Program-made: the position numbers and the translations under genes
From: Mesostigma viride
Taxonomy: Eukaryota > Streptophyta > Mesostigmatophyceae > Mesostigmatales > Mesostigmataceae
Assembly: GCA_009746045.1 (NCBI GenBank)
Contig: RPFO01000072.1
Span: forward strand, 5,514,507-5,578,506
Direction of reading: 5' to 3'
DNA: 64,000 bases
The notes under the pieces: model-generated
Database searches by the model: none
What the model was told of the DNA's origin: nothing
What the model saw: only the letters and a program-made list of their open reading frames with translations
Part shown: piece after piece, positions 20,593 to 59,999 of the stretch
How the letters are laid out: the number at the start of each line of letters is the position of its first letter
How positions within the stretch are numbered: the stretch's first letter is position 1

Positions 20593-20604
20593 ATGTATAT
20601 CTCC

Positions 20605-20934
20605 TGACCTCCGCCTTCTTCAAGGAGTGTTGCCGGCTCCGGGAGGACCGGCTGGACCTGGAGGGCCAGCGGGCCCCATGGTCGGCGCGGACCTGGACGT
20701 CATATTGGCGTCAGCGCTTGTCGGTGGCGCTGACTCGGGCCATGGCTGACATCATGCTCCGCCGTACGCGGGCTGATTTTGCGGTGCAGCAGGGCTATTA
20801 GGTTCCTCCCGTTAGGCGTTTCCATTGGTCTTATCGTAGTATAGAGCTTTGACATGGCTCTGTATATAGGTTTATAGCTGGGCGTTTGCTTTGGTTTGAG
20901 TGATTTCACTCTGCTGTAAGTAATTATATTTTTA
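20605..20934 (+). mobile_element. 5'-truncated REL-LINE copy, 330 bp
   Basis: Contains only the last 70 codons of the REL polyprotein (ending FAVQQGY) and the complete 3' UTR. It is flanked by a 12-bp target duplication ATGTATATCTCC at 20593-20604 and 20935-20946, which fixes both ends. Confidence 0.85.
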
Positions 20935-20961
20935 ATGTATATCTCCTTGATCCAAGTAAAT

Positions 20962-26601: not shown

Positions 26602-28162
26602 TGTCATCGATGCTCTGCGGGCCGCCCTCGAGGCACGCACTGAGGTACTGCCCTTGATTGCGCGCCTTCATGATTCGCAGACCAAGGGTCTGCTTCTGTG
26701 GTTTTGCGCTCACCCTCGCGTCGTTCACTGGCTCCGGGGCGCTCTTCCGTCTCAGGTCCGGCTGGCCGCCGAGGGCCACGACGAACGCATCCAGTCGGCC
26801 TTGGCGCAGCTGGTCCCGGGCCCCGACCTCCCGCCACATGCTATTCGCATTGCCTCCCTGCCTGCACGGATGGGTGGCTGCGGTCTGACTCGTGCCGCCC
26901 GGCTGGCCCCAGCAGCCTTTTTGGGCTCCGTCGCTCAGTCGTGGGCGGAAAGCTGCCGGCTCCTGCCCCTTTTGGCAACGGCAGCGCCTGACCTCCTGGA
27001 CCCCAGCAGCCCTTTGCCCTTCGTCACCGCCATCCAGGAGGCCTATGCTGAGATCCAGCAGGCCTGTTCTCCCGTCCGTGCCGCTCAGGCGGTACAGCGC
27101 CACCTCCCTCGCGGCACTCCCTCGGTCGCCTCCGTTCAATCTCCCGCCGCATTCCCTGCTCGCGTCATCGATAAACACCAGAAAACCTACGCGGGTATTC
27201 TGCACACGGCTGATTGGATTGCTCTTTTCGCGGACCTCAACGCCCAGGGACGTGCGTGGCTGTTCTCGCTTTCCTTGCGGAGTGTGGGCTCGGCGTACCT
27301 TCGTGCTCTTCCCATGGCCCCCCATTCGCCTTGGCTCCCAGCCACTACTCGGTGGCGCTCCGGCACCAGCTATTTGCCCCGCAGCCTCTTGTTCCGGCCG
27401 GGCGGCCTTGTGGTAGCTGTGGGCAGCCGCTGGATCCCACGGGGACTCACTACCTTGCCTGCATGGGGGCCAACAGAATCAGAATTGGTATTTGTATTTG
27501 CACACTGTCCTCCTGACGGTGGTGCTCGCCATGATTCGGTCGGTTTTCCCCCACGCGAACATCCGGTCCGAGGATGCGGATGGCGCTGCCTTCTATTCCC
27601 CCAACCACCGGCCTGACATCGTGGTGCTGGACTTTGAGGGGGGTGGCCGGCATCTGCTTATTGACGTTTCGGTGGCGCGGCCCTTGGCTCTTAGCCACGT
27701 GGCTGGGGCCTCCCTCACGGCAGGTTACACGGCGGACCGGGCGGAGCGGGCCAAGCTCCTGGCCTACGGCGACGTCGGGCACCATCGTGTGGTGCCCTTT
27801 GTCCTGGAGGAGTTTGGGGCCATGGGGCCCCTGACCTCCGCCTTCTTCAAGGAGTGTTGCCGGCTCCGGGAGGACCGGCTGGACCTGGAGGGCCAGCGGG
27901 CCCCATGGTCGGCGCGGACCTGGACGTCATATTGGCGTCAGCGCTTGTCGGTGGCGCTGACTCGGGCCATGGCGGACATCATGCTCCGCCGTACGCGGGC
28001 TGATTTTGCGGTGCAGCAGGGCTATTAGGTTCCTCCCGTTAGGCGTTTCCATTGGTCTTATCGTAGTATAGAGCTTTGACATGGCTCTGTATATAGGTTT
28101 ATAGCTGGGCGTTTGCTTTGGTTTGAGTGATTTCACTCTGCTGTAAGTAATTATATTTTTAA
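26602..28162 (+). mobile_element. 5'-truncated REL-LINE copy, 1.56 kb
   Basis: Flanked by a 16-bp target duplication TATATATATTAATAAT at 26586-26601 and 28163-28178. It carries the C-terminal third of the polyprotein in two frames (from ARLHDSQTK at about 26654, then 27492-28028) and the complete 3' UTR. It is the best preserved copy for the endonuclease region. Confidence 0.85.
27492..28028 (+). CDS. C-terminal endonuclease region of the REL-LINE
   Basis: A 178-codon open stretch with RPDIVVLDFEGGGRHLLIDV, an arrangement like the PD-(D/E)XK restriction-like fold of R2-type elements. A basic helical tail ends MLRRTRADFAVQQGY. In the related copies the CCHC finger CGSCGQPLDPTGTHYLACMG lies just upstream. 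Here it is damaged (about 27390-27470). In the family this domain nicks the target to start target-primed reverse transcription. The final catalytic Lys is not evident. This is a fragment of a larger protein. Confidence 0.6.
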   Translation: MYLHTVLLTVVLAMIRSVFPHANIRSEDADGAAFYSPNHRPDIVVLDFEGGGRHLLIDVSVARPLALSHVAGASLTAGYTADRAERAKLLAYGDVGHHRVVPFVLEEFGAMGPLTSAFFKECCRLREDRLDLEGQRAPWSARTWTSYWRQRLSVALTRAMADIMLRRTRADFAVQQGY

Positions 28163-28178
28163 TATATATATTAATAAT

Positions 28179-28852
28179 ATAATTACTTACAGCAGAGTGA
28201 AATCACTCAAACCAAAGCAAACGCCCAGCTATAAACCTATATACAGAGCCATGTCAAAGCTCTATACTACGATAAGACCAATGGAAACGCCTAACGGTAG
28301 GAACCTAATAGCCCTGCTGCACCGCAAAATCAGCCCGCGTACGGCGGAGCATGATGTCAGCCATGGCCCGAGTCAGCGCCACCGACAAGCGCTGACGCCA
28401 ATATGACGTCCAGGTCCGCGCCGACCATGGGGCCCGCTGGCCCTCCAGGTCCAGCCGGTCCTCCCGGAGCCGGCAACACTCCTTGAAGAAGGCGGAGGTC
28501 AGGGGCCCCATGGCCCCAAACTCCTCCAGGACAAAGGGCACCACACGATGGTGCCCGACGTTGCCGTAGGCCAGGAGCTTGGCCCGCTCCGCCCGGTCCG
28601 CCGTGTAACCTGCCGTGAGGGAGGCCCCAGCCACGTGGCTAAGAGCCAAGGGCCGCGCCACCGAAACGTCGATAAGCAGATGCCGGCCACCCCCCTCAAA
28701 GTCCAGCACCACGATGTCAGGCCGGTGGTTGGGGGAATAGAAGGCAGCGCCATCCGCATCCTCGGACCAGATGTTCGCGTCACTGGGGGAAAACCGACCG
28801 AATCATGGCGAGCACCACCGTCAGGAGGACAGTGTGCAAATACAAATACCAA
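28179..28852 (-). mobile_element. 5'-truncated REL-LINE copy in opposite orientation
   Basis: Nearly identical to the neighbouring plus-strand copy but inverted and joined tail to tail through an AT-rich linker. It encodes the last 135 codons (stop near 28308) and ends within sequence corresponding to 27486. An AATATATATA string on both sides is a likely target duplication. Confidence 0.8.
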
Positions 28853-29584
28853 TATATATACTTTAATAGTACTTATTACTGATCAGAATATACTTTAATA
28901 GTACTTATTACTGATATTAACTATTAGCTATTAACTATTAACACTAGGCTATGACCAGTAGTGCTATAGAGCTGCTGTATCAAACAATATCTAGTGCTTA
29001 TGACCTAAAGGAGGTGCCCAGGTGGAGCTGCTCTAGTGCTCGCAACACATCATGTGCAGGTAGCTGTGTGAGATACCTAGTCTGGTGCAGCCCTTATGGG
29101 AGTAGTATATTATCCCTAATAGACTAACCTGCCTCTGTGATGAATACGTCTATAACCTCCGTCATTATTACGTCTATTGCGAGAGGTTCCCATGAACTAC
29201 CGATTAGGTATAAAGCAATATCACACGGTATTGAAGCATGAAATGCAGGAAGGGAAAGAAAAGGAGGACAGCCCACCCAGGATACCTCTACGTGCAGGTG
29301 ACGTGCTCACAGCGAGAGAGAAACACAAGGCAGAAACAAAACGTTCACAAACAGTACGAAGAACGTTGAGGTACAGCCACCGGCAACACAGTAAGGCAAC
29401 GGCCAGCCGGTGACTACCCTCGAGCCGTTGGCAGCGTTGCCCTCTGGGGGTCCGCCCACGGCTCACGAACGTTGGCCTCTGGGGCAACGTGGGTACCAAC
29501 AGACACGAACATGAAATCGGACACGACAGAAAACATATACCCCGTTGCTACGCGCGTGGGTAAGACAGGGGATAAGAAGGACTT
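28853..29584. other. AT-rich and unassigned part of the gag-only element leader
   Basis: Begins with two copies of TATACTTTAATAGTACTTAT, then unique sequence. No coding region could be assigned. Confidence 0.4.
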
Positions 29585-29595
29585 ATATATATATT

Positions 29596-30367
29596 AAAAA
29601 TATAATTACTTACAACAGAGTGAAATCACTCAAACCAAAGCAAACGCCCAGCTATAAACCTATATACAGAGCCATGTCAAAGCTCTATACTACGATAAGA
29701 CCAATGGAAACGCCTAACGGGAGGAACCTAATAGCCCTGCTGCACCGCAAAATCAGCCCGCGTACGGCGGAGCATGATGTCAGCCATGGCCCGAGTCAGC
29801 GCCACCGACAAGCGCTGACGCCAATATGACGTCCAGGTCCGCGCCGACCATGGGGCCCGCTGGCCCTCCAGGTCCAGCCGGTCCTCCCGGAGCCGGCAAC
29901 ACTCCTTGAAGAAGGCGGAGGTCAGGGGCCCCATGGCCCCAAACTCCTCCAGGACAAAGGGCACCACACGATGGTGCCCGACGTTGCCGTAGGCCAGGAG
30001 CTTGGCCCGCTCCGCCCGGTCCGCCGTGTAACCTGCCGTGAGGGAGGCCCCAGCCACGTGGCTAAGAGCCAAGGGCCGCGCCACCGAAACGTCAATCAGC
30101 AGATGCCGGCCACCTCCCTCAAAGTCCAGCACCACGATGTCAGGCCGGTGGTTGGGGGAATAGAAGGCAGCGCCATCCGCATCCTCGGACCGGATGTTCG
30201 CGTGGGGGAAAACCGACCGAATCATGGCGAGCACCACCGTCAGGAGGACAGTGTGCAAATACAAATACCAATTCTGATTCTGTTGGCCCCCCATGCAGGC
30301 AAGGTAGTGAGTCCCCGTGGGATCCAGCGGCTGCCCACAGCTACCACAAGGCCGCCCGGCCGGAACA
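29596..30367 (-). mobile_element. 5'-truncated REL-LINE copy, 0.77 kb
   Basis: Flanked by an 11-bp target duplication ATATATATATT at 29585-29595 and 30368-30378. It encodes 188 codons of the endonuclease region (30294-29728) in one open frame and ends with the shared 3' UTR. The 5' end falls just upstream of the CCHC finger. Confidence 0.85.
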
Positions 30368-30379
30368 ATATATATATTG

Positions 30380-47351: not shown

Positions 47352-47355
47352 CCTG
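47352..47355. repeat. CCTG target duplication of the gypsy element, left
   Basis: The same four bases occur at 58468-58471. A 4-bp duplication is typical for Ty3/gypsy integrases. Confidence 0.8.
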
Positions 47356-47496
47356 TGTCGCGTCTGCGTGCCACAATCTCCGGCGCCACCATGGCGGCTG
47401 GCCACTCAGCTTAATTTGGTAAAACCCAAATGAGCTGAGCTGGTGCCTGCCTTAACTGCATGCCCTGTGGGGTGGGCGAGGACCTGTCCCATGATT
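47356..47496 (-). repeat. repeat B2, outer end of the gypsy element
   Basis: 141 bp, from AATCATGGGACAGG to ACGCGACA in element sense. It matches B1 (48750-48892) except for a 2-base difference near 47441, and it forms the 3' terminus of the integrated element. Confidence 0.85.
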
Positions 47497-47497
47497 G

Positions 47498-48747
47498 AAT
47501 GAAAAGAGGGCTCTCAGCCGAGGACAAGGAACTGTCCCTCGTGCCTGATGACCACCTTCTTGATCCCCTTGTGTACCGTCGCGTGCCGCGTTTGAATATC
47601 CTTGCTGGGGCGTTAGCTAGACGCTCCAACTACTCTAATTGCGACAATATGATGGTGCAAGAGGGTGCTTTTGCCTCCCCTGCTATAGAACAATGCTTTC
47701 ACAACACACACTTTGCACAGTCTGATGATGAAGCCGCATATGCGGAATTTATTGAGAAAGTTAATACAATTACAACACGTTGATAGTCTCAATATCGATG
47801 CACTCCATGCTCACGAGCCCGCAGTTAGGCAGCGCTCCATGACATGCTACCGGCCTTGCTCCCAAGGAAAGGGAGAAACACGAAGGCCACTAACGAGAGA
47901 CTCGAAGAGACTACACGCTGCGTGAGAGTCCTCTTCGACTATGAACCAAACCATTCGTCATGCCACACGCATGACACACGCCACACTTGTCAGTCCAGCC
48001 AGGAATGCCAAAACTATCTTGCTGCCTGAACCATGCAAATAGAAACCGCATTCCAGTTGCCGTCCTGGCTTTCTACCACACATGCCAACAAAAGCAGGAA
48101 GGCATCCCGACAAATCTAAATTGCTACCCTGTTGCCGATCTCATCTCCTAGAGGCTCCGGCATTTCTGTCCCTGGGAATGTCCGGCATTGAGTCACGTCC
48201 ACCAAGGTCGAAGCATAATATCCTTCAGACAATCTGCACGCTCACACCTTGCGTGTGAGTGGCCCAGCAAACATTGCGTCTAATCGTTCCTTTCTAGAAG
48301 AAATCCCTTTGTAGGGCTGCCAGCGATTTCGCATTCATTCCAGCGATCTGGCTCCGCACCGCAAATTGTCCTTTTCCATTTTCTGTCCAGTCCTCATAAC
48401 GTTGACCCGCTATTCTACACCACAAAGACACCTGGCCTGTCAATAGCCTCGGCGCTGTTGAAGTCCAGCAGTCCAGCTTCAGCTCCAGCTGTCCACTAAC
48501 ACGCGTATGATCCTCTCGACGCTGCGCACTTGTGCTGCCGTCCGCTCAAGTCAGTGCTGCGCGCCCAGCTGTGCCTGGCCCGGCGCGCGTGCACGTACAC
48601 TTTCGTCCGCTCTTATGCTGCAAGTGCTAGTGTCCCCCCCGGTCACTAGCCTTTGTCGAAAATGCGTAGAAAACAAATTCCTTGCGCACGTCACCGGTCT
48701 TGTGCATAGTGGGCGCCGCCCGGATGACATAGCTCGCGTCCGTGACA
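47498..48747 (-). repeat. repeat A2 of the gypsy element
   Basis: 1250 bp, nearly identical to A1 at 57217-58467. Differences seen are single bases (for example CATATGCGG versus CACATGCGG) and one C in a homopolymer. It contains the hairpin and the 14-nt primer-like segment at 47900-47913. Confidence 0.9.
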
Positions 48748-48749
48748 GC

Positions 48750-48892
48750 TGTCGCGTCTGCGTGCCACAATCTCCGGCGCCACCATGGCGGCTGGCCACT
48801 CAGCTTAATTTGGTAAAACCCAAATGAGCTGAGCTGACGTGCCTGCCTTAACTGCATGCCCTGTGGGGTGGGCGAGGACCTGTCCCATGATT
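48750..48892 (-). repeat. repeat B1 of the gypsy element
   Basis: 143-bp copy of B2, located between the polypurine tract and A2 and separated from A2 by GC. In reverse-transcription terms B1-GC-A2 would be the complete LTR (1395 bp). Confidence 0.85.
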
Positions 48893-48902
48893 CCCCCCCT
48901 CG
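48893..48902 (-). promoter_or_regulatory. polypurine tract of the DNMT gypsy element
   Basis: On the minus strand GCGAGGGGGGG is followed by AATCATGGG, the first bases of B1. This is the position where plus-strand DNA synthesis should start. Confidence 0.75.
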
Positions 48903-48918
48903 CTGGCGACCGGCCCCA

Positions 48919-50427
48919 TCACGAAGACAGCGATCGTACCAAGACAAGGGCAGCGGTGACCGCAGTCAAGCTGCGGGAGGTAAACTGCGCAGCGGTGCAC
49001 ACTGGACAAAACCAATCCCCCTCCGGAATGCTGGTGACCACTGGCTGCAAGCACTGCATGTGCCAACCACAGTTACACTGATCACACAATAACATGGACT
49101 CCGCCTGATCGACCCGGTGACAAACCTGACACTGGGCGTCCTTGACTCGGCGAGACGTGTGCGGTTGGAGGTCGTGGACCAAATTGGGCAGCGAGCAGGG
49201 ACTGAGATTGCTGAGGTTGTCAGTCGTACGGCTCCCGTCGGCGCCCTCCAAAATTGCCACTCCCGATGGTTTGATAGCCACAATGCGCAAAATGGTGGGC
49301 CCCGCCTCCACATCCAAAGTGTGCTTCAGCTGAGTGCGCAGGAAAACATACTGCCCTGGCCTAAACCGCAGCTGGCGAGCCATGTATGCGCCCCCCCGGC
49401 GCTGAGCGTAGCGCAGGGAGTCCCTGTGCTGAGCAATGAACAAGTTGTTCATCGCGATGGGCATGACCTTCTTAAAAGTCTCTGCCCTGGCCAGCACCTC
49501 AACCAAAAATTGCTGAGCGTTGTCGAAGGCCATGGGTTCGGGGTGCGCAACCTGTGCCTCCGTAGGCAAAAGAGGATTACGCCCGAACAGAAGGAAATAC
49601 GGGGAGAAGGTAGCGAGAGACTCCTGGGGAGACATGCGATAACCCATGGCAATCCATGCCAACTCGCGATCCCACCTGGCCGACTCCGGCACCTGCAGGC
49701 TCCACTTGCGCAGCGCCTGCTTGACGGTCTGCACCAATCTCTCAGCCAAACCATTGGCCTGAGGATGCTCCCGAGAAGTGCGACGGTGATCAATAAGACA
49801 TCCATCCAGCAACTCCTGGAACTCACCCCTGAACTCACCACCCTGGTCCGTGACTACCTCCGCGGGAGCCCCAAACCTGGTGATGTCCGCAAAATGCTTC
49901 GCTGTGGTAGCGGCATGCTTGTCAGCAATGGGGATCAACTCAACCCATTTGCTAAAGCTCTCCACGCATACCATGACATAGAGGTTGCCGTCAGGGCTCT
50001 CCTGAAACGGCCCGCACAGATCGACGTGCCAGCGATAAAACAAGCCCTTGATGGGAAGCGACATCAGCTCCTTGGCACCATGATCTGCGCTAAAGTTAGC
50101 CTTGGTTCGAGCACACGGGACACAGCTGGCCACTACCTGGGCCACCGTGTGTCGCATGTTATTCCACCAATAGCTGGTCCGTACGAGGCTGAGCGTGCGA
50201 TTGCCACCCAAGTGACCATACCGCTCGTGGTACGCCTGCACTATAGCAACGCGCTTGTCAGGCGGTGGGACGACCACCCTACGCTTGCCCAACAGCTTGT
50301 ACAAAACCCCATCTTCCCAACCATAGGTTGCAGCCCTGTGCTGCACCCTGTTCAACTCCGTCGCCTTCTGAGCAGGAGTCCAATCGACTGGAGTAGGAGT
50401 CAAGACAGCACCCTGCACTTGCTCCAA
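48919..50427 (-). CDS. gypsy integrase with C-terminal PHD finger
   Basis: 502-residue frame overlapping the RT frame by 28 nt in the -1 frame. The HHCC zinc domain lies at 67-105 (HERYGHLGG to CVPCARTK). The catalytic core has HVDLCG (D135), VTDQGGEF (D194) and HPQANGLAERL (E229), so the DDE triad is complete. After a basic DNA-binding region the C-terminus carries CQVCHRVDQAESMLLCDQCN through DWFCPVC (433-477), a C4HC3 PHD finger. Integrase inserts the cDNA into chromosomes. PHD fingers often read histone H3 tails, so this one may steer insertion, as chromodomains do in chromoviruses. Start codon uncertain (no ATG at the frame start). Confidence 0.9.
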   Translation of the reverse strand: MEQVQGAVLTPTPVDWTPAQKATELNRVQHRAATYGWEDGVLYKLLGKRRVVVPPPDKRVAIVQAYHERYGHLGGNRTLSLVRTSYWWNNMRHTVAQVVASCVPCARTKANFSADHGAKELMSLPIKGLFYRWHVDLCGPFQESPDGNLYVMVCVESFSKWVELIPIADKHAATTAKHFADITRFGAPAEVVTDQGGEFRGEFQELLDGCLIDHRRTSREHPQANGLAERLVQTVKQALRKWSLQVPESARWDRELAWIAMGYRMSPQESLATFSPYFLLFGRNPLLPTEAQVAHPEPMAFDNAQQFLVEVLARAETFKKVMPIAMNNLFIAQHRDSLRYAQRRGGAYMARQLRFRPGQYVFLRTQLKHTLDVEAGPTILRIVAIKPSGVAILEGADGSRTTDNLSNLSPCSLPNLVHDLQPHTSRRVKDAQCQVCHRVDQAESMLLCDQCNCGWHMQCLQPVVTSIPEGDWFCPVCTAAQFTSRSLTAVTAALVLVRSLSS

Positions 50428-52943
50428 ACTCGACCATCTAGCCAGATATCAGCGGTGTAGCAATCAGCAAGAGAGCTACGCGCTAAGAGAGCCTGCACAG
50501 CGATCAGCTGCTGCAGAGAAGGATCAATGTCAAAGGACAGAGACCTACCCTCTTCCATAGCGCACACAGCTTTGGATGGCGTGAATGGCGACGGCCGCAC
50601 CGGGTCGTCGCTGATGCCGAAGTCCGCCACAGAGTACTCGACACTGCGCCACCACGCCTCCTCCTCATCGTCGGCCGCATACCCAGCAGCGTTCACAAAG
50701 ACCACAGAACCAGACGAGCCCTCGGCACCCATGGCCCGGGCTCCAGTGTGGTCAACAGTGGTAGGCATGGCGTATCGGGATAGCACATCGGCGTTGACAT
50801 GGTCCTTGCCGGCCCGATGCACAATGGTCATGTGGTACTCCTGGATAATCATGGCCCATCGGGCGAGCTTACCCGTCAGGTTGGTGTTGGTCATTAGCCA
50901 CTGAAGCGGCTGGTGGTCTGTCACCAGAGTAAACACGCGCCCAAATAAATACGGGCGAAAGTGCTTGATGGCCCACACCACAGCCAGTGCCTCCCCCTCA
51001 TAGGAAGAATACCGGCTCTCCGCTGGGTTGTTGCTGCGACTAGCATAAGCAATAACGTGCTCGCGCCCATCACCATCCTTTTGCGCCAAGACCGCACCCA
51101 GTCCTACCTTGGACCAGTCGGTATATAACACAAATGGCAAAGCATAGTCAGGGGCGCGCAGAATCGGTGCCGACGTGAGCTCCTGCTTGATTGTCTCGAT
51201 GGCGCGTTGCTGTGCGGGACCCCACGCCCACACGCACCCCTTCTTGAGTAACTCGGTCAAGGGCTTCACCTTGCTGCTGAAGTTCTCAATGTAACCTCGG
51301 TAATAGCCAGCCAAACCCAAATACGCCCGCACCCCTGAGACATCCGTGGGTACGGCGGCCTGCGCAATGGATTCGACCTTGGCGGCATCAGGCGTCCGGC
51401 CACCCGGCACAATCTGATGACCAAGGAATGAGAGGGTCCGCTGGGCGAACTTGCACTTCTCAGGGTGCAGCCGCATATTATGCTCCTCGAGAGCCAAGCG
51501 AACCTGCTCCAAGTGCGCCAGGTGCTCCTCAAATGTCGCGCTAAAGACGATTACATCATCAATGTAACAAGCGGCGAAAGGAAGACCTGCAAGCACTTTG
51601 TCCATAGCTCGTTGGAAAACAGCACTAGCGTTGCGGTGCCCAAAGGGCATGCGCACCCACTCATACAAATTGCCGCCCCCCCAGAATGCAAGCTTCCGCT
51701 GATCCTCCGGCGCAACTGCGATCTGATGAAAGCCGCTACGCAGGTCCAGCGAGGACACAAACTTCACATGAGGAGATATCTTATCCAGGACATCATCCAC
51801 ACGTGGCATGGGGTAACGGTCCACGGGTGTGTGTGCATTCAGCAACCGCAGATCGGTGGCCATGCGCATACCCGTCCATGCCCCGGTGATAGCGTCCTTC
51901 TTGGGCGCAACGACAACGGCAGCAGCATAGCTGGAGGAAGATTGCCTGATGATACCGGCATCCTCTAACTCCTTGCATTGCTCGGCTACAAAATCCAACT
52001 CGGCCTGACTCAGGCGATGCTGGCGTCGGAACAAAGGAGTGTCAGTGTCCAATGGAACACGCATGGTCCCACCATTGAAACACCCCAGTTCATCACTTGT
52101 GAAAGCGAAGGCCCCCCTTGCAGTGCCTAGCCACTTTAGCATGGCTGAGCGCTGCGCATCAGAAAGGTGTTCGCCAATAGCCCAGGGGTGCGTATCCGCG
52201 GGATCACCCACAGCTACCGCATGTGCCTCAAGATGCGGCGCCCTAGCCGCATCGTCGTGGAACAAGGAAAAGGCTGCCACACCTGGTGTGACACCCACCG
52301 CCGGAGCCTCGCGTGCCGCACGGTGTATTACCCGATGCAGCGTGGGCTCGCCGGCCAGCACGGTGCTGGTCAGCAGGGCGGTCATGAGAATGATAGTCCA
52401 CACCTGTCGCAGACGCCACCCCCATGCTGATGAAGTCCCCGTCGCTGCAGGGCGCTTCAGTTTGGCTGCGCGCGCCTCAACCTGCTGAGGCGGATTGGCT
52501 GGGGACGCCCCCCCAGACTGGCGCACGGCAACCGATGCAAGCAGCACATACCCGACCTGCAACACCGACATAGCCTGGCCTATCAAAGACCAGCGCTCAC
52601 TCTCGAGCACGCCCGGCAGCGCCGAGGCCCCGACATGAAAACCCATGCTGGCCTCACGAAATTCTGCGGGTGGCTGCACCAACAGACCGGTGGTAGTGTC
52701 CCAAACGAGACCCTTACCCCGATCACGGTATGCTGTCGACCCTTGGTAACTGACCAGGGTCGGCAGTGCACACATGGGGCTCCCGACCCGGTTGACGCGT
52801 GCATACGGTGGGCGATCCTCGCTATCCACCTTCTGCGTGACTAGGTGGGAAGGCAATGCTACCTCCGCAGACACACTCGGATGCTGCCTTGCTACGGCCC
52901 CAAGACCGCCTGCACACCGGTCGCACACGCCACGTTGGTCCAA
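50400..52943 (-). CDS. gypsy reverse transcriptase and RNase H, with the DNMT C-terminal part
   Basis: 847-residue frame. Residues 60-135 resemble the end of a C5-cytosine methyltransferase (TLVSYQGSTAYRD, FREASMGF, then ERWSLIGQAMSVLQVGYVL as motif X). A hydrophobic stretch WTIILMTALLTSTVLAG lies at 182-198. RT spans about 290-510 with LDLRSGFHQI and the active site YIDDVIVFS (460-468). RNase H spans about 600-730 with LYTDWSKVGLGAVL, YEGEALAVVWAIKHFRPY and VTDHQPLQWL, all acidic residues present. It begins 52 nt inside the preceding frame, shifted by -1. RT copies the RNA and RNase H removes the template. Confidence 0.9.
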   Translation of the reverse strand: MDQRGVCDRCAGGLGAVARQHPSVSAEVALPSHLVTQKVDSEDRPPYARVNRVGSPMCALPTLVSYQGSTAYRDRGKGLVWDTTTGLLVQPPAEFREASMGFHVGASALPGVLESERWSLIGQAMSVLQVGYVLLASVAVRQSGGASPANPPQQVEARAAKLKRPAATGTSSAWGWRLRQVWTIILMTALLTSTVLAGEPTLHRVIHRAAREAPAVGVTPGVAAFSLFHDDAARAPHLEAHAVAVGDPADTHPWAIGEHLSDAQRSAMLKWLGTARGAFAFTSDELGCFNGGTMRVPLDTDTPLFRRQHRLSQAELDFVAEQCKELEDAGIIRQSSSSYAAAVVVAPKKDAITGAWTGMRMATDLRLLNAHTPVDRYPMPRVDDVLDKISPHVKFVSSLDLRSGFHQIAVAPEDQRKLAFWGGGNLYEWVRMPFGHRNASAVFQRAMDKVLAGLPFAACYIDDVIVFSATFEEHLAHLEQVRLALEEHNMRLHPEKCKFAQRTLSFLGHQIVPGGRTPDAAKVESIAQAAVPTDVSGVRAYLGLAGYYRGYIENFSSKVKPLTELLKKGCVWAWGPAQQRAIETIKQELTSAPILRAPDYALPFVLYTDWSKVGLGAVLAQKDGDGREHVIAYASRSNNPAESRYSSYEGEALAVVWAIKHFRPYLFGRVFTLVTDHQPLQWLMTNTNLTGKLARWAMIIQEYHMTIVHRAGKDHVNADVLSRYAMPTTVDHTGARAMGAEGSSGSVVFVNAAGYAADDEEEAWWRSVEYSVADFGISDDPVRPSPFTPSKAVCAMEEGRSLSFDIDPSLQQLIAVQALLARSSLADCYTADIWLDGRVWSKCRVLS

Positions 52944-54115
52944 TAGGCACGCAAACGATGCGTGAGCCCACCCAGCCCTGCGTTGTCACACACGATGGGC
53001 TCCCCCAGGAGTGCCACGATTGTAGCCCAGTCCTCCCGCACCGCCTGATGTGGGCTGTCACCCGCCACAACGTTCTCAAACAGATACGCAGGCGGATGGG
53101 GCTGACGCGACTGCAACAGTCCCACCACACGCAACAGTTCCCAGAACAGCGCGCTACGCGGATCGGCTAGCCCCCGCCCTTGCCCTGCCTGGCTCAGGCC
53201 CTGGCACTCCCAACCCGCAATTACCAAGTCGATGGCATGATGCCTGCGCAACAACTGCTGCACCTGCACCTCACCGATGGCTCGGATATCTTGAGGACAT
53301 TCCCCAAACGGGTCACGCCATGCTGATGGCGGAAACTGCGCGGGATACTCTCGCGACAACACGCCACAGTGACTGAAGTACACCTGACGCGCCTTGTGCG
53401 ATGGCTCTACCGCGATGAGTTTACGGCACACGCCGCCTGCGGCCAAAAAGCCTGCAATGCCCCCTCCGATCCCCGCAAACAGTTCCAACACTACCGCACC
53501 CTTGGCAAAATCAGGGGCCTGCGGTAAGATTGCAGCAGAAAAATTACCTTGGGCCTCCGAGACACCCGGTTGCACCAAAGTGAGGCCATGGCTGGCCATC
53601 TGAGGAATGGTGATGACGGCTTCAGTCACCCGCTTGCGCATAGCCAGCTGCCGCGTGGACGTCACAGCATCCAGCGACCACTGCGTGCGCATCTTGGCAA
53701 TGCTCGCCGTTGGCTGAGGCAGCACCGTCCGATGCTTGTCCCACGCCGATGAGCCCGCCGCCCGTACCTCCACCATGCTGACCTCCACCACGCCCGCAGC
53801 CGCGGAAGGGTTGAGGCGTGCAGCCCCGGCTGAAGAACTGAAGCATGAGACCGGCACACTGGCCCGCTTCAGGCCAGCCCCATCCCAATCAGGGATGTAA
53901 GATGCCTCCTCCGCCCTATAGTCCACCTGAACCATGGCGCGAGCAAGGACATCCACCCCGAGTAGTGCGGAATATCCACACTTGTTGACCACCAGCGCAT
54001 ACGCGGACACGGTGGTCATGCTAGAGGCGCGCAACGGATTGAAAATCACGTTGACTTTAACCGCCGTCATAGCGTACGGCTTACTAGCCGGACCCTGCCA
54101 ACCTGACACAGACAC
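52892..54115 (-). CDS. retrotransposon-borne C5-cytosine DNA methyltransferase (motifs I-VIII), after the protease end
   Basis: 407-residue frame. Residues 1-75 complete the aspartic protease begun at the end of gag (VNVIFNPLRAS, SALLGVDVLARAMVQVDY). The methyltransferase follows: motif I VVLELFAGIGGGIAGFLAAG (208-227), motif IV DLVIAGWECQGLSQAGQGRG with the catalytic Cys304, motif VI AYLFENVV (344-351) and motif VIII HRLRAYWTN (386-394). Motif IV has Glu where the family usually has Pro (PCQ/PCN). Motifs IX and X lie in the next frame. The enzyme would methylate cytosines, perhaps to protect or silence the element's own DNA. The frame break leaves the activity of this copy open. Confidence 0.85.
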   Translation of the reverse strand: MSVSGWQGPASKPYAMTAVKVNVIFNPLRASSMTTVSAYALVVNKCGYSALLGVDVLARAMVQVDYRAEEASYIPDWDGAGLKRASVPVSCFSSSAGAARLNPSAAAGVVEVSMVEVRAAGSSAWDKHRTVLPQPTASIAKMRTQWSLDAVTSTRQLAMRKRVTEAVITIPQMASHGLTLVQPGVSEAQGNFSAAILPQAPDFAKGAVVLELFAGIGGGIAGFLAAGGVCRKLIAVEPSHKARQVYFSHCGVLSREYPAQFPPSAWRDPFGECPQDIRAIGEVQVQQLLRRHHAIDLVIAGWECQGLSQAGQGRGLADPRSALFWELLRVVGLLQSRQPHPPAYLFENVVAGDSPHQAVREDWATIVALLGEPIVCDNAGLGGLTHRLRAYWTNVACATGVQAVLGP

Positions 54116-57069
54116 GGGGCTTTCACTAAGCCACCGTTCTCGTAGGTCAGGTTCAGCATGGTGGCCAAGTCTGTGCTGATGACTAGCGGCTGAGCACCGC
54201 TATCAAGCTTGACTGCGCCAACCAACGGACATGTCACCATGTCGCTCCATACATCTCCACAGGCTCCAACTGCTTGGAACGCTATGGACGGCTCACCATT
54301 GGGGTATGGAACCACCGTGGGAACCTGGGGAACTGCACTAGTGCGCTGCTGGCTACTTGTGCTGACCACTCCCGCTTGCACCACGGGCACTGCGGCTTCT
54401 ACCGGCTGACGCCCGTAGGTGACGGACTCAGAATTGCGCAAGGTGCGCACATCATGCCCATCTGCGAACAACTGGATCTCGGACACAACCGACCCCAGCC
54501 ACTCAACCCCCTTCTGCCCGAAGGTGTCGACCACCTGCCGTGCTGAAAACATGGGTACGTCCACAATGAACGGCATTGGGTACACAGGCGCCAATCGCCT
54601 ACGCTGCTCCAGCCCAGCAGGGTTCGCATGCTCAAAAGCAGATTGCACCCCAGCCAGCGGCATGGAAAAGGACGCGGGCAACTGCCCGGCAGGCAACATG
54701 GGTGCCTGCTGAAAAGAAAGCGGGCTGCGTGCCTGCTTGCCTTTGGTAGCCTCCGCAGCGTTGATCTCGACGTCACCCGGCATGGGCGCCCAGAATGGGT
54801 CCTCCCGGTACACCGTCGCGAATTGGTTGGGGGGCGCCGTCGCCTCCTCACCATGCTTGATGGCAGCCACCTGGGCTTCCATCGAGTCGGTCTTGCCCGC
54901 CATCTCGGCGAAGTGGACCGTCTTGATGCCCGCGGCTGGACACTTGTTCATCAGGTGCCACTTCGTGTCTGCCCCATGCGGCTTCGTGCAGCGGCTTGGA
55001 CACTCGCGACTAAGGTGCCCATCCTTGTCGCAAAGGTAACATTTACCGCGTGACGGGGTGGGTGCGCCCAGCGCGCCTTGCACGCCCTGCGCCTCCTGAG
55101 TCCCATCCGATGACGGCGGACGACCGCCTCCGCCTCGACCACCACCGCGACCCCGACCACCGTAGCCACTGCCGCCGCCACCACGACTGACACCGCCGCT
55201 GCCACCCTGACCGCCACCGCCGCTGCCCCCGTGACCGGCGTTGCCACCACCCTGAGTGCCGACATATTCACCGCGCCCCGCACCAGGCAGCCGCTGGCCA
55301 CCCTTGACCGCGATGGCCTTCTCCATCTCAGCCATCTTCTTGCGCATCTCAGCCAGCTCAGACGAGATACCCTTCTCGCCTTCCGCACGCTTCCTGAGCA
55401 GCCGCTTGAATGCTGCACAGAGAGTCACCAAAGTCCACTCCCCACCGGGCGGCTCCGGAAGATCGATGGCCAGCAGGGGCACTGCACTCCGCCATAACCG
55501 GCAAGCCTTGGTCTGCGTATAATCAGGCACTTTGCCCGCAAACGCGAGAAGCCGGTCAAGGGAGAAAGCCGGATCCTCACCCTCGGCGACGGTGAACGCT
55601 CCATTCCATTCCGCGATGGCCTTGACGTGCTCAACTGGGTACTCCAGCCGCAGTTGCTGCCACAGCTGCTCTGCCGGGTCGACATCGAAGATGATCGAGT
55701 CGAGATCCGGTGTGCCCATGTCCGTGAGCGCAAACCATATGTCCGTGCGATGACATCGGTCCACGAGCGCTCGGTAATGCTGGACCAAAACCTGGACCTT
55801 CTTCTTGGTCAGGTCATGGAAAAAAAGGTGAATAAAATCCATCACCATCTCATGGCGAAGAGGATACCCCGAGGCATAACGATAAGTGTTACAATGAGCT
55901 CGGAAGAGCTCATAGGCTTCCTCTAAAGTCGCACCCGTGCCTGCTGAGGTGAACTTCTCGCGAAGCTCCACCTTGGGCAGCGATGGCACACGAGTGGATT
56001 CGCCATGCACGCCGTACGGCATGCGGTGGGGTCGCTGGACGTCGTCGCCCTCACCCCATGGTATGCTGGCTACCTCCCGATCGACTTGGCCCCAGCCGAA
56101 GTCTGACCGAGTGCCGCCAAGCCTGGGCCGCCCTGCGGTGCCACCCAACGGCGTTGCTGCCGCCGTCATGGGTGGCCGACCTGTGCTAAACAAGCCACCT
56201 GATGCTCCCCCCCTGGGGGCTGCACCATACCCGCCGCGCCACGATAACGTGCCTTGGTTGGGTGCCCGTAGGTTCCCCCCCAGCGTATAAGATGCGTCGG
56301 CAGTCGACCGGGTGCCTACCCGACCGACGTTCGGCTGCAGCTCGTCATCCTGCGCCATTTCCCCGTCGCCCCGCCGTTGACCGCTTGGTCCGACGCGTGG
56401 CTGACTGGGCTCAACGTTGCGTAGTGGACCTGTCCCACTGCGCTCTTCGTCGAAGTGTCCGCGTTGGTCGCGCAGCGCCTCATGTCGCCGCGCTTCCTCG
56501 GCAGCGGCCTCCTCGTCGGCAGCCTGCCTGGCCTCGGCGTCGCGTTGGGCCGCAGCTTGGCAGGCGCGTGCAGCTTCCGTGGTTGCCTCCGCCTGCCGCC
56601 GTTGCTCAGCGCGCTCCGTAGCACGCCTCGCTTCAGCCGTAGATTCCGCGCGCTCCAAAGCAAGTCGCACAGTTTCTTCAACAAGCGTCGCCTGTTGCGA
56701 TAACTGCGTCGCTTGCTGAGCTCGGAGTGCCGCCAGCTCTGCCGCTTGCTCTTGCAGCAGGCGCAGCACTTGGGTAAGAGCACCACCGTCCCCTGCCGAA
56801 GAAAGGGAAGGCGCTCCATTACCTAACAAAGCGGTGTCCGCACTAGTGCCGAGACGACCGCTGGGCGGGTCAGTTGCTTGACCGCCCGTAGCTGCCGGCG
56901 CTGACCCACCACTGCCTGATGCTGTGGGGTCAGTTCCTGACATGTTGATGGTGGTATCGACCCTGGAGAGCTCCTGCCCGTCGGTGTCGACGCCCGTGTT
57001 GGCACAGCCTGCGTGGCTTGCCAAAAACGCTGTGACCGACCTAGTGTGATATGACATAAACTGCCACAA
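54067..57069 (-). CDS. gag: Gag and protease N-terminus of the DNMT gypsy element
   Basis: A frame of 1000 codons. The likely ATG is at 56943 (MSGTDPTASG), giving about 958 residues. It has a long Ala/Glu/Arg coiled coil (roughly residues 95-205), a Gag fold (EAYELFRAHCNTYRYASGYP, RHEMVMDFIHLFFHDLTKKK), a Gly/Arg-rich segment with RGG boxes and a CCHC knuckle CYLCDKDGHLSREC (about 55045-55005). The end holds the protease active site VKLDSGAQPLVIS (DSG). The frame stops at 54067 while the protease continues in the -1 frame. It builds the particle and packages RNA. Confidence 0.85.
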   Translation of the reverse strand: MWQFMSYHTRSVTAFLASHAGCANTGVDTDGQELSRVDTTINMSGTDPTASGSGGSAPAATGGQATDPPSGRLGTSADTALLGNGAPSLSSAGDGGALTQVLRLLQEQAAELAALRAQQATQLSQQATLVEETVRLALERAESTAEARRATERAEQRRQAEATTEAARACQAAAQRDAEARQAADEEAAAEEARRHEALRDQRGHFDEERSGTGPLRNVEPSQPRVGPSGQRRGDGEMAQDDELQPNVGRVGTRSTADASYTLGGNLRAPNQGTLSWRGGYGAAPRGGASGGLFSTGRPPMTAAATPLGGTAGRPRLGGTRSDFGWGQVDREVASIPWGEGDDVQRPHRMPYGVHGESTRVPSLPKVELREKFTSAGTGATLEEAYELFRAHCNTYRYASGYPLRHEMVMDFIHLFFHDLTKKKVQVLVQHYRALVDRCHRTDIWFALTDMGTPDLDSIIFDVDPAEQLWQQLRLEYPVEHVKAIAEWNGAFTVAEGEDPAFSLDRLLAFAGKVPDYTQTKACRLWRSAVPLLAIDLPEPPGGEWTLVTLCAAFKRLLRKRAEGEKGISSELAEMRKKMAEMEKAIAVKGGQRLPGAGRGEYVGTQGGGNAGHGGSGGGGQGGSGGVSRGGGGSGYGGRGRGGGRGGGGRPPSSDGTQEAQGVQGALGAPTPSRGKCYLCDKDGHLSRECPSRCTKPHGADTKWHLMNKCPAAGIKTVHFAEMAGKTDSMEAQVAAIKHGEEATAPPNQFATVYREDPFWAPMPGDVEINAAEATKGKQARSPLSFQQAPMLPAGQLPASFSMPLAGVQSAFEHANPAGLEQRRRLAPVYPMPFIVDVPMFSARQVVDTFGQKGVEWLGSVVSEIQLFADGHDVRTLRNSESVTYGRQPVEAAVPVVQAGVVSTSSQQRTSAVPQVPTVVPYPNGEPSIAFQAVGACGDVWSDMVTCPLVGAVKLDSGAQPLVISTDLATMLNLTYENGGLVKAPCLCQVGRVRLVSRTL

Positions 57070-57202
57070 CCACTACCAAGTAGCAACGGTCTAATCTGAA
57101 AGACTTAATGGTTGATCAGGCCACTATGTGTGCTAGTCTTCCCCAGAAAACTGCACACCGTCTCTCTTTGCTGAAATGAAAATGTTCCTTTGCAGATGGA
57201 GC

Positions 57203-57216
57203 TAGTCTCTTCGAGT
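57203..57216 (-). promoter_or_regulatory. probable self-priming primer binding site
   Basis: In element sense ACTCGAAGAGACTA starts at the base directly after repeat A1. It is perfectly complementary over 14 nt to TAGTCTCTTCGAGT inside A1 (57632-57619). It lacks the usual TGG of tRNA-primed sites. The arrangement recalls Tf1/sushi-type self-priming. Confidence 0.65.
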
Positions 57217-58467
57217 AATGAAAAGAGGGCTCTCAGCCGAGGACAAGGAACTGTCCCTCGTGCCTGATGACCACCTTCTTGATCCCCTTGTGTACCGTCG
57301 CGTGCCGCGTTTGAATATCCTTGCTGGGGCGTTAGCTAGACGCTCCAACTACTCTAATTGCGACAATATGATGGTGCAAGAGGGTGCTTTTGCCTCCCCT
57401 GCTATAGAACAATGCTTTCACAACACACACTTTGCACAGTCTGATGATGAAGCCGCACATGCGGAATTTATTGAGAAAGTTAATACAATTACAACACGTT
57501 GATAGTCTCAATATCGATGCACTCCATGCTCACGAGCCCGCAGTTAGGCAGCGCTCCATGACATGCTACCGGCCTTGCTCCCAAGGAAAGGGAGAAACAC
57601 GAAGGCCACTAACGAGAGACTCGAAGAGACTACACGCTGCGTGAGAGTCCTCTTCGACTATGAACCAAACCATTCGTCATGCCACACGCATGACACACGC
57701 CACACTTGTCAGTCCAGCCAGGAATGCCAAAACTATCTTGCTGCCTGAACCATGCAAATAGAAACCGCATTCCAGTTGCCGTCCTGGCTTTCTACCACAC
57801 ATGCCAACAAAAGCAGGAAGGCATCCCGACAAATCTAAATTGCTACCCTGTTGCCGATCTCATCTCCTAGAGGCTCCGGCATTTCTGTCCCTGGGAATGT
57901 CCGGCATTGAGTCACGTCCACCAAGGTCGAAGCATAATATCCTTCAGACAATCTGCACGCTCACACCTTGCGTGTGAGTGGCCCAGCAAACATTGCGTCT
58001 AATCGTTCCTTTCTAGAAGAAATCCCTTTGTAGGGCTGCCAGCGATTTCGCATTCATTCCAGCGATCTGGCTCCGCACCGCAAATTGTCCTTTTCCATTT
58101 TCTGTCCAGTCCTCATAACGTTGACCCGCTATTCTACACCACAAAGACACCTGGCCTGTCAATAGCCTCGGCGCTGTTGAAGTCCAGCAGTCCAGCTTCA
58201 GCTCCAGCTGTCCACTAACACGCGTATGATCCTCTCGACGCTGCGCACTTGTGCTGCCGTCTGCTCAAGTCAGTGCTGCGCGCCCAGCTGTGCCTGGCCC
58301 GGCGCGGGTGCACGTACACTTTCGTCCGCTCTTATGCTGCAAGTGCTAGTGTCCCCCCCCGGTCACTAGCCTTTGTCGAAAATGCGTAGAAAACAAATTC
58401 CTTGCGCACGTCACCGGTCTTGTGCATAGTGGGCGCCGCCCGGATGACATAGCTCGCGTCCGTGACA
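57217..58467 (-). repeat. repeat A1, 5' terminal repeat of the gypsy element
   Basis: 1251 bp, beginning TGTCACGGACGCGAGC in element sense directly at the CCTG duplication and lacking the B segment. It presumably holds the promoter. A weak TTCATAG lies about 25-31 nt upstream of the possible RNA start at 57632. Confidence 0.9.
57619..57659. other. imperfect hairpin inside repeat A
   Basis: ACTCGAAGAG-ACT pairs with AGTCCTCTTCGACT around an inner perfect stem CACGC-T-GCGTG. The same occurs in A2 at 47900-47940. The outer arm is the segment complementary to the primer site. Confidence 0.6.
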
Positions 58468-58471
58468 CCTG
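58468..58471. repeat. CCTG target duplication of the gypsy element, right
   Basis: Matches 47352-47355. Confidence 0.8.
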
Positions 58472-59495: not shown

Positions 59496-59999
59496 AACAG
59501 CGATATTTGCTGGGCAGGGCGGTGGCGGTATCTTCGAAAATATTGAGCGATAGTTGTAGAAAATTATATCAGCGTGTTCGTCTTTAAAAGACGAGTCTAA
59601 TGCAACCAACCCGATGAAATTTCATGGCCGGAGTCAAAAGTTATGAGCATTCTCGTATATTGCAACAGCGATATTTGCTGGGCAGGGCGGTGGCGGTATC
59701 TTCGGAAATATTGAGCGATAGCTGTAGAAAATTATATCAGCGTGTTCGTCTTCAAAAGACGAGTCTAATGCAACCAACCCGATGAAATTTCATGGCCGGA
59801 GTCAAAAGTTATGAGCATTCTCGTATATTGCAACAGCGATATTTGCTGGGCAGGGCGGTGCCGGTATCTTCGGAAATATTGAGCGATAGCTGCAGAAAAT
59901 TATATCAGCGTGTTCGTCTTCAAAAGACGAGACTAATGCAACCAACCCGATGAAATTTCATGGCCGGAGTCAAAAGTTATGAGCATTCTCGTATATTCG
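59496..59999 (-). repeat. three 168-bp 5' UTR monomers of the LINE
   Basis: Units start AACAGCGATATTTGCTGGGC at 59496, 59664 and 59832 with few differences, just upstream of ORF1. Tandem promoter monomers at a LINE 5' end are known from mouse L1. A diverged single unit precedes the ORF1-only element at 14.56-14.71 kb. Confidence 0.85.

Follow-up and report, generated by a model that had tools for sequence, protein, structure and literature searches.

A stretch of 64,000 nucleotides from Mesostigma viride (assembly GCA_009746045.1, contig RPFO01000072.1; C113:5514507-5578506 in our numbering), referred to as the window, carries a retrotransposon on its minus strand (58467 to 47356) which reads A-internal-B-GC-A-B in sense orientation, has TG...CA termini, and is bordered by a 4-bp target-site duplication. 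Judging from the sequences of this copy and its relatives, we consider it likely that the element represents a Ty3/Gypsy family in which the integrase attachment site is located inside the long terminal repeat (LTR), with the cDNA's own ends being joined to each other. The ends made by reverse transcriptase (RT) and the ends used by integrase, which are normally one and the same, would thus be separated in this family.

All coordinates are given in window numbering. The genome (440 Mb, 2243 contigs) was searched for further copies; copies elsewhere carry L numbers and contigs carry C numbers. A5 and A3 designate the 5' and 3' copies of the A repeat, B1 and B2 the internal and terminal copies of the B repeat.

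Organization of the element

The repeat order, the sizes of A and B, the GC dinucleotide, the TG...CA ends, and the CCTG duplication, which had been reported in a preliminary description of this DNA, were re-read in the window and found to be correct, with the refinement that the C at 47497 is part of neither A nor B. The termini are TGTCACG...CGCGACA. An identical LTR at both ends is not present in the integrated copy: the 5' end consists of A alone and the 3' end of B-GC-A-B. The order Gag - RT - RNase H - integrase, with an H2C2/rve integrase, is that of Ty3/Gypsy elements. The features are as follows, in sense order.

58468..58471, minus strand: 5' target-site duplication; sense-strand sequence CAGG (CCTG on the plus strand)
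57217..58467, minus strand: A repeat, 5' copy, 1251 bp; begins with TGTCACG, last bases ...CATT are the RT-defined U5 end
57619..57632, minus strand: 14-nt stretch of A (A positions 836-849), presumed self-primer near the RNA 5' end; perfect complement of the primer site
57203..57216, minus strand: primer-binding site (PBS) ACTCGAAGAGACTA; adjoins U5
54067..57072, minus strand: Gag frame, 1001 aa, stop-to-stop, with CCHC zinc knuckle
52892..54199, minus strand: C5 cytosine methyltransferase frame, 435 aa, stop-to-stop (PF00145, E 2.8e-12)
50400..52985, minus strand: reverse transcriptase (YIDD) and RNase H frame, 861 aa
48919..50448, minus strand: integrase frame, 509 aa, with H2C2 zinc domain, rve core, and C-terminal PHD finger
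48893..48901, minus strand: polypurine tract (PPT) GAGGGGGGG; adjoins U3
48750..48892, minus strand: internal B repeat (B1), 143 bp; begins with AATC, the RT-defined U3 start, and ends with CGCGACA
48748..48749, no strand: GC spacer of the palindrome CGCGACA-GC-TGTCACG; proposed integrase cut site
47498..48747, minus strand: 3' A repeat, 1250 bp; differs from the 5' copy by 3 substitutions and a 1-bp gap
47497, minus strand: extra C at the U5/U3 end joint (CATT-C-AATC); part of neither repeat
47356..47496, minus strand: B repeat, terminal copy B2, 141 bp; ends with CGCGACA, 2 bp of B1 missing
47352..47355, minus strand: 3' target-site duplication; sense-strand sequence CAGG

Primer site, polypurine tract, and the reverse-transcribed LTR

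As in other Ty3/Gypsy elements, a PBS follows U5 and a PPT precedes U3. Because the PBS lies next to ...CATT and the PPT next to AATC, the LTR of the cDNA is B-GC-A, with the ends AATC... and ...CATT, in agreement with the preliminary description. The PBS is no tRNA site of the TGG type; its perfect 14-nt match is to the element's own A repeat (positions 836-849), and none of 2000 shuffled A repeats gave a 14-nt complement to the primer site. This suggests that the element may prime on its own RNA in the manner of Tf1 from fission yeast, in which the RNA folds back and serves as primer on a site next to U5. Self-priming would be a trait of both, but Tf1 has ordinary LTR ends, unlike the window family.

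Retroviral-type integrases require a CA near the end of the cDNA. Ahead of the RT-defined U5 end, a CA is not conserved across the copies, where CATT, CTTT, CGTT, CGTC, and CGCT are found.

Copies in the genome and their integrated ends

A search with the DNA query PPT-B-GC-A-C-B resulted in 760 candidates, and scoring of the best 40 of these gave 42 matches. The whole query is covered within 2 bases by 35 of the 42. Of the other 7, 4 stop where A ends (position 1403), two rows belong to a single split copy, and one is a fragment beside L020. Immediately after L020 comes a partial A repeat with primer site from another copy of the family (L041), apparently a nested arrangement. Two of the matches ending at 1403 are tandem copies (L031, L032) and two have A followed by primer-site bases (L033, L034). 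In all 30 top-scoring loci which were read, the borders PPT|B, GC site, A-B joint, and B|flank are the same, so that the placement of the integrated ends at the internal B/A border, proposed earlier for the window copy, extends to the family. The near-identity of B1 across copies was dropped as a biological signal because it is more likely to result from the search, which preselects words shared with the query.

Exact matches in the genome amount to 501 for the B start, 253 for PPT|B, and 173 for TTTCNTT-joint-B; with up to 2 mismatches, there are 259 A|primer-site and 281 PPT|B matches. Site lists contain the first 100 places each, so that class frequencies reflect parts of the genome. Among the first 100 of the 501 exact B starts, 56 follow a PPT, 35 follow an A end of the type searched for, and 9 follow neither. 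Reading of these 9 assigned 4 to truncated or inverted right ends, 2 to variants of the PPT, and 1 to a variant A end; 1 more is an ordinary 5' end (contig C133), and L145 is unassigned.

It had been proposed to check whether the copies share not only the permuted ends but also 4-bp duplications. Flank pairs were tried for 27 copies and both flanks could be read in 21, of which 19 show an identical 4-bp duplication (L006 and L013 represent one shared site). Solo A-B copies have duplications in all six cases with both ends read (GGCA, TACC, CCTG, ATAG, GCCA, AGGC; a seventh candidate, L102, was read only in part and is not included). The same holds for the three A-internal-B copies with two readable ends (ATTC; TTAC, in a repetitive flank; TATT), and such copies bear no terminal repeats whatever. 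The duplications found adjoin the GC-site ends. A cut at CGACA^GC on both strands would leave 2-base 5' overhangs, as in normal 3' processing.

The element start was missing from the 5' segments read for L045, L048, a set of 8 copies (3 of them later located via the primer-site list), and 6 of the 27 flank pairs; the 5' segment of L076 shows the start of another copy. Flanks are common to the contigs of L003/L022, L023/L027, and L005/L104, which may be alternative haplotypes.

The U5/U3 joint and the GC spacer

Joints were collected with patterns for CATT-type ends (45 joints) and CTTT/CGTT-type ends (108 joints, 100 of these listed). Among the matches listed, 133 of 145 joints connect the U5 end bluntly to the U3 start, a count that refers to inserts because the patterns are blind to deletions. 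The other 12 carry inserts (+A in 4, +G in 5, and +C, +CA, and +TT in 1 each), although copies sharing an insert in the CTTT/CGTT lists may be related by descent. In 9 of 10 single-base inserts, the base is either A, the first base of the primer site, or G, the last base of the PPT, and both types occur in more than one subfamily. Among 37 aligned copies, 6 have an indel precisely at the joint; other columns reach at most 3, save two subfamily differences of 7-8. The spacer is GC at 99 of the 100 listed of 239 exact-flank sites, the remaining one being TGCAGC.

A constant GC as opposed to a variable A-B joint indicates that GC is copied and that the A-B joint is made anew. On this sequence pattern we take the A/B border of the 3' repeat to be the joint of the U5 and U3 ends. 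The sequence GCGACA-GC-TGTCACG, which the preliminary description had expected as the junction of circular cDNA, is located within the LTR; the expected circle junction is that of U5 and U3, CATT|AATC.

Proposed mechanism

We propose that the RNA starts within A and would prime itself at the site next to U5. Reverse transcription would yield the usual two-LTR cDNA, B-GC-A-internal-B-GC-A, with the ends AATC... and ...CATT. The DDE integrase would bypass these ends and would instead introduce a staggered cut at CGCGACA-GC-TGTCACG in the left LTR. Such a cut would provide both integration ends (TGTCACG of A and CGCGACA of B), with GC as an overhang that is lost, and both cut ends would be inserted with a 4-bp target duplication. 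The U5 and U3 ends would be end-joined either in a circle that is cut afterwards or at the insertion site once the cut has been made, and the A-B border would be the resulting scar. In this lineage, a palindrome inside the LTR has probably replaced the cDNA ends as the site of integrase attachment, so that integration would proceed via host end joining, be it in a circle or on site. The sequences themselves show the repeat order, the ends, the duplications, the joint with its variants, the PBS and PPT positions, and the coding domains; self-priming, the cut by integrase, the order of cutting and joining, and the reason for opening only the left LTR are inferred.

In the copies examined, the left LTR alone appears to have been opened. 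We read 50 A-joint-B segments past B (L001-L030, L035-L040, L095, six solo copies, L103, L104, and five more). Conversely, of 85 B-GC-A sites listed from contigs up to C1429, a PPT precedes 77, and no site has a listed joint upstream; the other 8, which were read, are 1 ordinary 5' end, 3 PPT variants, 1 site in the array L140 with a joint upstream, and 3 rearranged sites. The array L140 consists of A and B pieces of the LTR with three A-B joints and no internal region, and there B-GC-A does follow a joint. Random opening of a two-LTR circle was rejected, because the mirror form A-B-GC-A-internal-B would be expected in half of the cases and was seen in none of the copies examined. During standard reverse transcription, extension of the minus strand completes the left LTR; the right LTR is made later, once plus-strand synthesis has crossed the internal region. 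Our guess is that the left LTR is double-stranded before plus-strand synthesis reaches the right one, and that this might account for the one-sided opening. The preliminary description had suggested that a circular or tandem LTR form was opened inside the LTR. Opening inside the LTR agrees with the form expected from end-joined cDNA; a free two-LTR circle does not agree with the lack of the mirror form.

Several observations weigh against the proposed mechanism. None of the 50 A-joint-B segments continues into GC-A (outside the array L140), and with the mirror form not found, an extra asymmetry must be assumed. Copies L028-L030, L036, and L037 are chimeric, with B1 from one subfamily and A-joint-B2 from another, which is not expected from a single cDNA without later recombination; they could arise if a one-LTR circle recombined with an old solo A-B copy. 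A5 is not in every case nearest to its own A3 (rank 1-5 among 37 A3 sequences in eight copies), and the pairing of A5 with A3 was rejected as decisive proof of concerted copying. Two of the 21 flank pairs lack a perfect duplication (L016 is one base off, L003 is unmatched). L033 and L034 have no B after the 3' A but 15 or 7 primer-site bases, and then other sequence.

Variant copies

Some copies deviate at the right end. L141/L152 (C1) has an internal region that breaks off in the integrase gene, at element position 8248, and continues directly with B from its exact U3 start; no right LTR is seen, and the duplication GAAC is present on both sides (the two ends were read, and the span of 6.8 kb fits). 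In L151/L153 (C689), A ends about 100 bp early and is joined to the exact U3 start, with the duplication GCCA. A truncated or inverted A is joined to U3 in L149 and L144. L070 has a 118-nt insert at the A-B joint, the final 77 nt of which correspond to the stretch that immediately precedes the PPT; the same picture would result from a deleted tandem copy. On C111, two units in tandem have a common B-GC-A and the duplication CAAT, and tandem copies can be explained by unequal exchange after insertion.

The copy on C133 has the termini predicted for the cDNA, with flank|B-GC-A-primer site at one end and B-GC-A|flank at the other, 10 kb away. It has no clear duplication (5' flank ...cattattta, 3' flank AATATAGTGG); a TTTA repeat would require the loss of three U5 bases.

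Exact GC-A follows B at 77 of the 100 listed PPT|B sites. At 14 of the 23 sites where it is absent, B is followed by other sequence; one of these 14 is the end of the odd copy L070.

Order of cutting and joining, and alternative explanations

The U5 and U3 ends may be joined first, in a two- or one-LTR circle which integrase would then open at GC; the A-internal-B copies would be opened one-LTR circles. We regard this order as quite possible, its chance being somewhat below even. It has a counterpart in prototype foamy virus (PFV), whose integrase is reported to cut the palindrome at two-LTR junctions with loss of 2 bases, making both processed ends, 36 of 40 sequenced junctions matching blunt ends (PMC1180852). 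The 14 PPT|B sites that run into other sequence, including the three copies with both ends read and duplicated, are in line with opened one-LTR circles. The missing mirror form argues against a circle; in addition, B1 x B2 recombination after insertion would yield A-internal-B equally well and, since the product is the same, these copies do not decide whether one-LTR circles are their sole source.

Alternatively, the left LTR of the linear cDNA may be cut first, with both cut ends being inserted and the free U5 and U3 ends being end-joined in the chromosome, an order to which we likewise assign a little less than one chance in two. Provided that the left LTR is completed before the right one, it explains why opening is one-sided; it fits L141, where no right LTR is seen, and also joints with filler or truncation. 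On the other hand, we know of no precedent for this order, and two cDNA ends bound to the chromosome would have to be held together.

A different explanation is that the unit A-internal-B-GC-A-B moves as DNA, in the manner of Ginger elements, or is copied end to end, so that the joint is inherited. The integrase-type ends with their duplications and the identity of most joints are compatible with this, as is the grouping of A5 or B2 of some copies by subfamily rather than by copy. Against it, indels are concentrated at the joint (6 of 37 copies) and +A and +G occur in more than one subfamily; truncated right ends meet the exact U3 start inside perfect duplications; the PBS and PPT are located exactly at the borders of A and B; and a cDNA-like copy exists on C133. 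We consider an inherited joint very improbable.

That a tyrosine-recombinase element was mistaken for a Gypsy element has a negligible probability. To our knowledge, PAT and Ngaro elements make no target-site duplication, while duplication-free ends are not what is found here (19 of 21 copies have a 4-bp duplication). The split direct repeats of the window element, in the order A-internal-B-A-B, are indeed those described for PAT, Ngaro, and TOC3 (PMC4157794), as the preliminary description had stated for Ngaro; these elements use a tyrosine recombinase, but the window element has an H2C2/rve (DDE) integrase, no recombinase gene was detected by Pfam among 18 frames of the window copy, 4-bp duplications border TG...CA, and the joint varies as a joint of DNA ends does. 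Finally, a single aberrant insertion, with ordinary B-A LTRs in the other copies, has practically no chance of being correct, because the permuted form is present in 30 of 30 loci read; in its favor stands one copy, that on C133 with B-GC-A at both ends, which provides the one ordinary 5' end among the 9 odd B starts.

Relation to known systems

The preliminary description knew of no element with split direct repeats and a DDE integrase. Such an element is in print: KnitGypsy-Dnmt3 of Klebsormidium nitens (de Mendoza et al., 2018; PMC5890265) is described as having Gypsy domains, a cytosine methyltransferase in Pol, and a DIRS repeat structure. It thus resembles the window element in its domains, methyltransferase, repeat order, and charophyte (streptophyte) algal host. 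The comparison is one of descriptions; the account, in the parts available to us, gives no ends, duplications, primer site, or mechanism (PMC5890265). The repeat order of a methyltransferase-bearing Gypsy element has therefore been published, and we found no account of its mechanism. In the open-access literature searched, neither later work under the name KnitGypsy-Dnmt3 nor a title or abstract describing an integrase site inside a retrotransposon LTR was found. Among the 8000 candidates scored in each of two protein searches, there was no Klebsormidium protein. The window family offers a testable explanation for the Klebsormidium repeat order noted in 2018.

DDE transposases open the circle junctions of IS3 and IS30, in which inverted ends abut with a 2-3 bp spacer; unlike the window family, these are DNA transposons without reverse transcription. 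HIV-1 integrase cuts its U5-U3 palindrome in vitro (PMC1905944). In PFV and HIV-1, as proposed here, one integrase reaction on an internal palindrome makes both processed ends; their palindrome is the U5/U3 junction, whereas that of the window family would be inside the LTR and the U5/U3 joint only a scar.

Split direct repeats can thus occur without a tyrosine recombinase. The proposed mechanism would have several further consequences. For one lineage, it would reopen the question of whether end-joined or circular cDNA can lead to integration. An old model had retroviruses integrate through the circle junction and was abandoned for them; if the circle route is true, this family would be a living case of that model. 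The genomic copies would be a record of host end-joining, which makes this family of more than 200 copies a natural data set on the repair of cDNA ends. LTR finders which expect LTR-internal-LTR may misread such families.

Coding content

In the window region 46-60 kb, there are 39 frames of at least 100 aa, and 18 frames of the element were scanned against Pfam. The coding parts occupy different reading frames. Among the candidates scored, the protein most similar to the RT frame comes from Closterium; it has the same set of domains (RT, RNase H, and integrase) and is 44% identical over 59% of the query. The DDE residues were assigned by motif to D143, D201, and E236 of P0031, with 34 residues separating the last two; the usual spacing is 35. 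The PHD finger (PF00628, E 2e-9) is fused to the C-terminus of the integrase (48919-50448) and is possibly a chromatin-targeting module. PDB matches of the methyltransferase are weak, the first being 4onj, a "DNA methyltransferase" (E 0.0013), followed by the HaeIII and HhaI enzymes. The predicted Mesostigma protein P0026 (jgi/Mesvir1 in EukProt) matches window positions 55719-52719, the methyltransferase region, in three pieces of 152-411 aa with 99-100% identity; a fourth piece, of 101 aa, shows 72% identity. This is in accord with Mesostigma viride, a streptophyte alga, as the host. P0026 also contains LDSGAQ, which we take to be a protease-like motif.

Additional observations

At L048, L050, L033, and L139, the B-like sequence ATGGCACGCAAACGCGACA precedes other sequence; this related end suggests a further family with similar ends. 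In the window, a 168-bp tandem repeat is located at 59496-59999, 1 kb past the insertion, with 3 copies that are 95-98% identical to the first. Near-identical direct and inverted copies are present at 15206-16771, 20603-20942, and 26667-30368, among them 1.37 kb at 27484-28853 that match their own complement with 98.5% identity.

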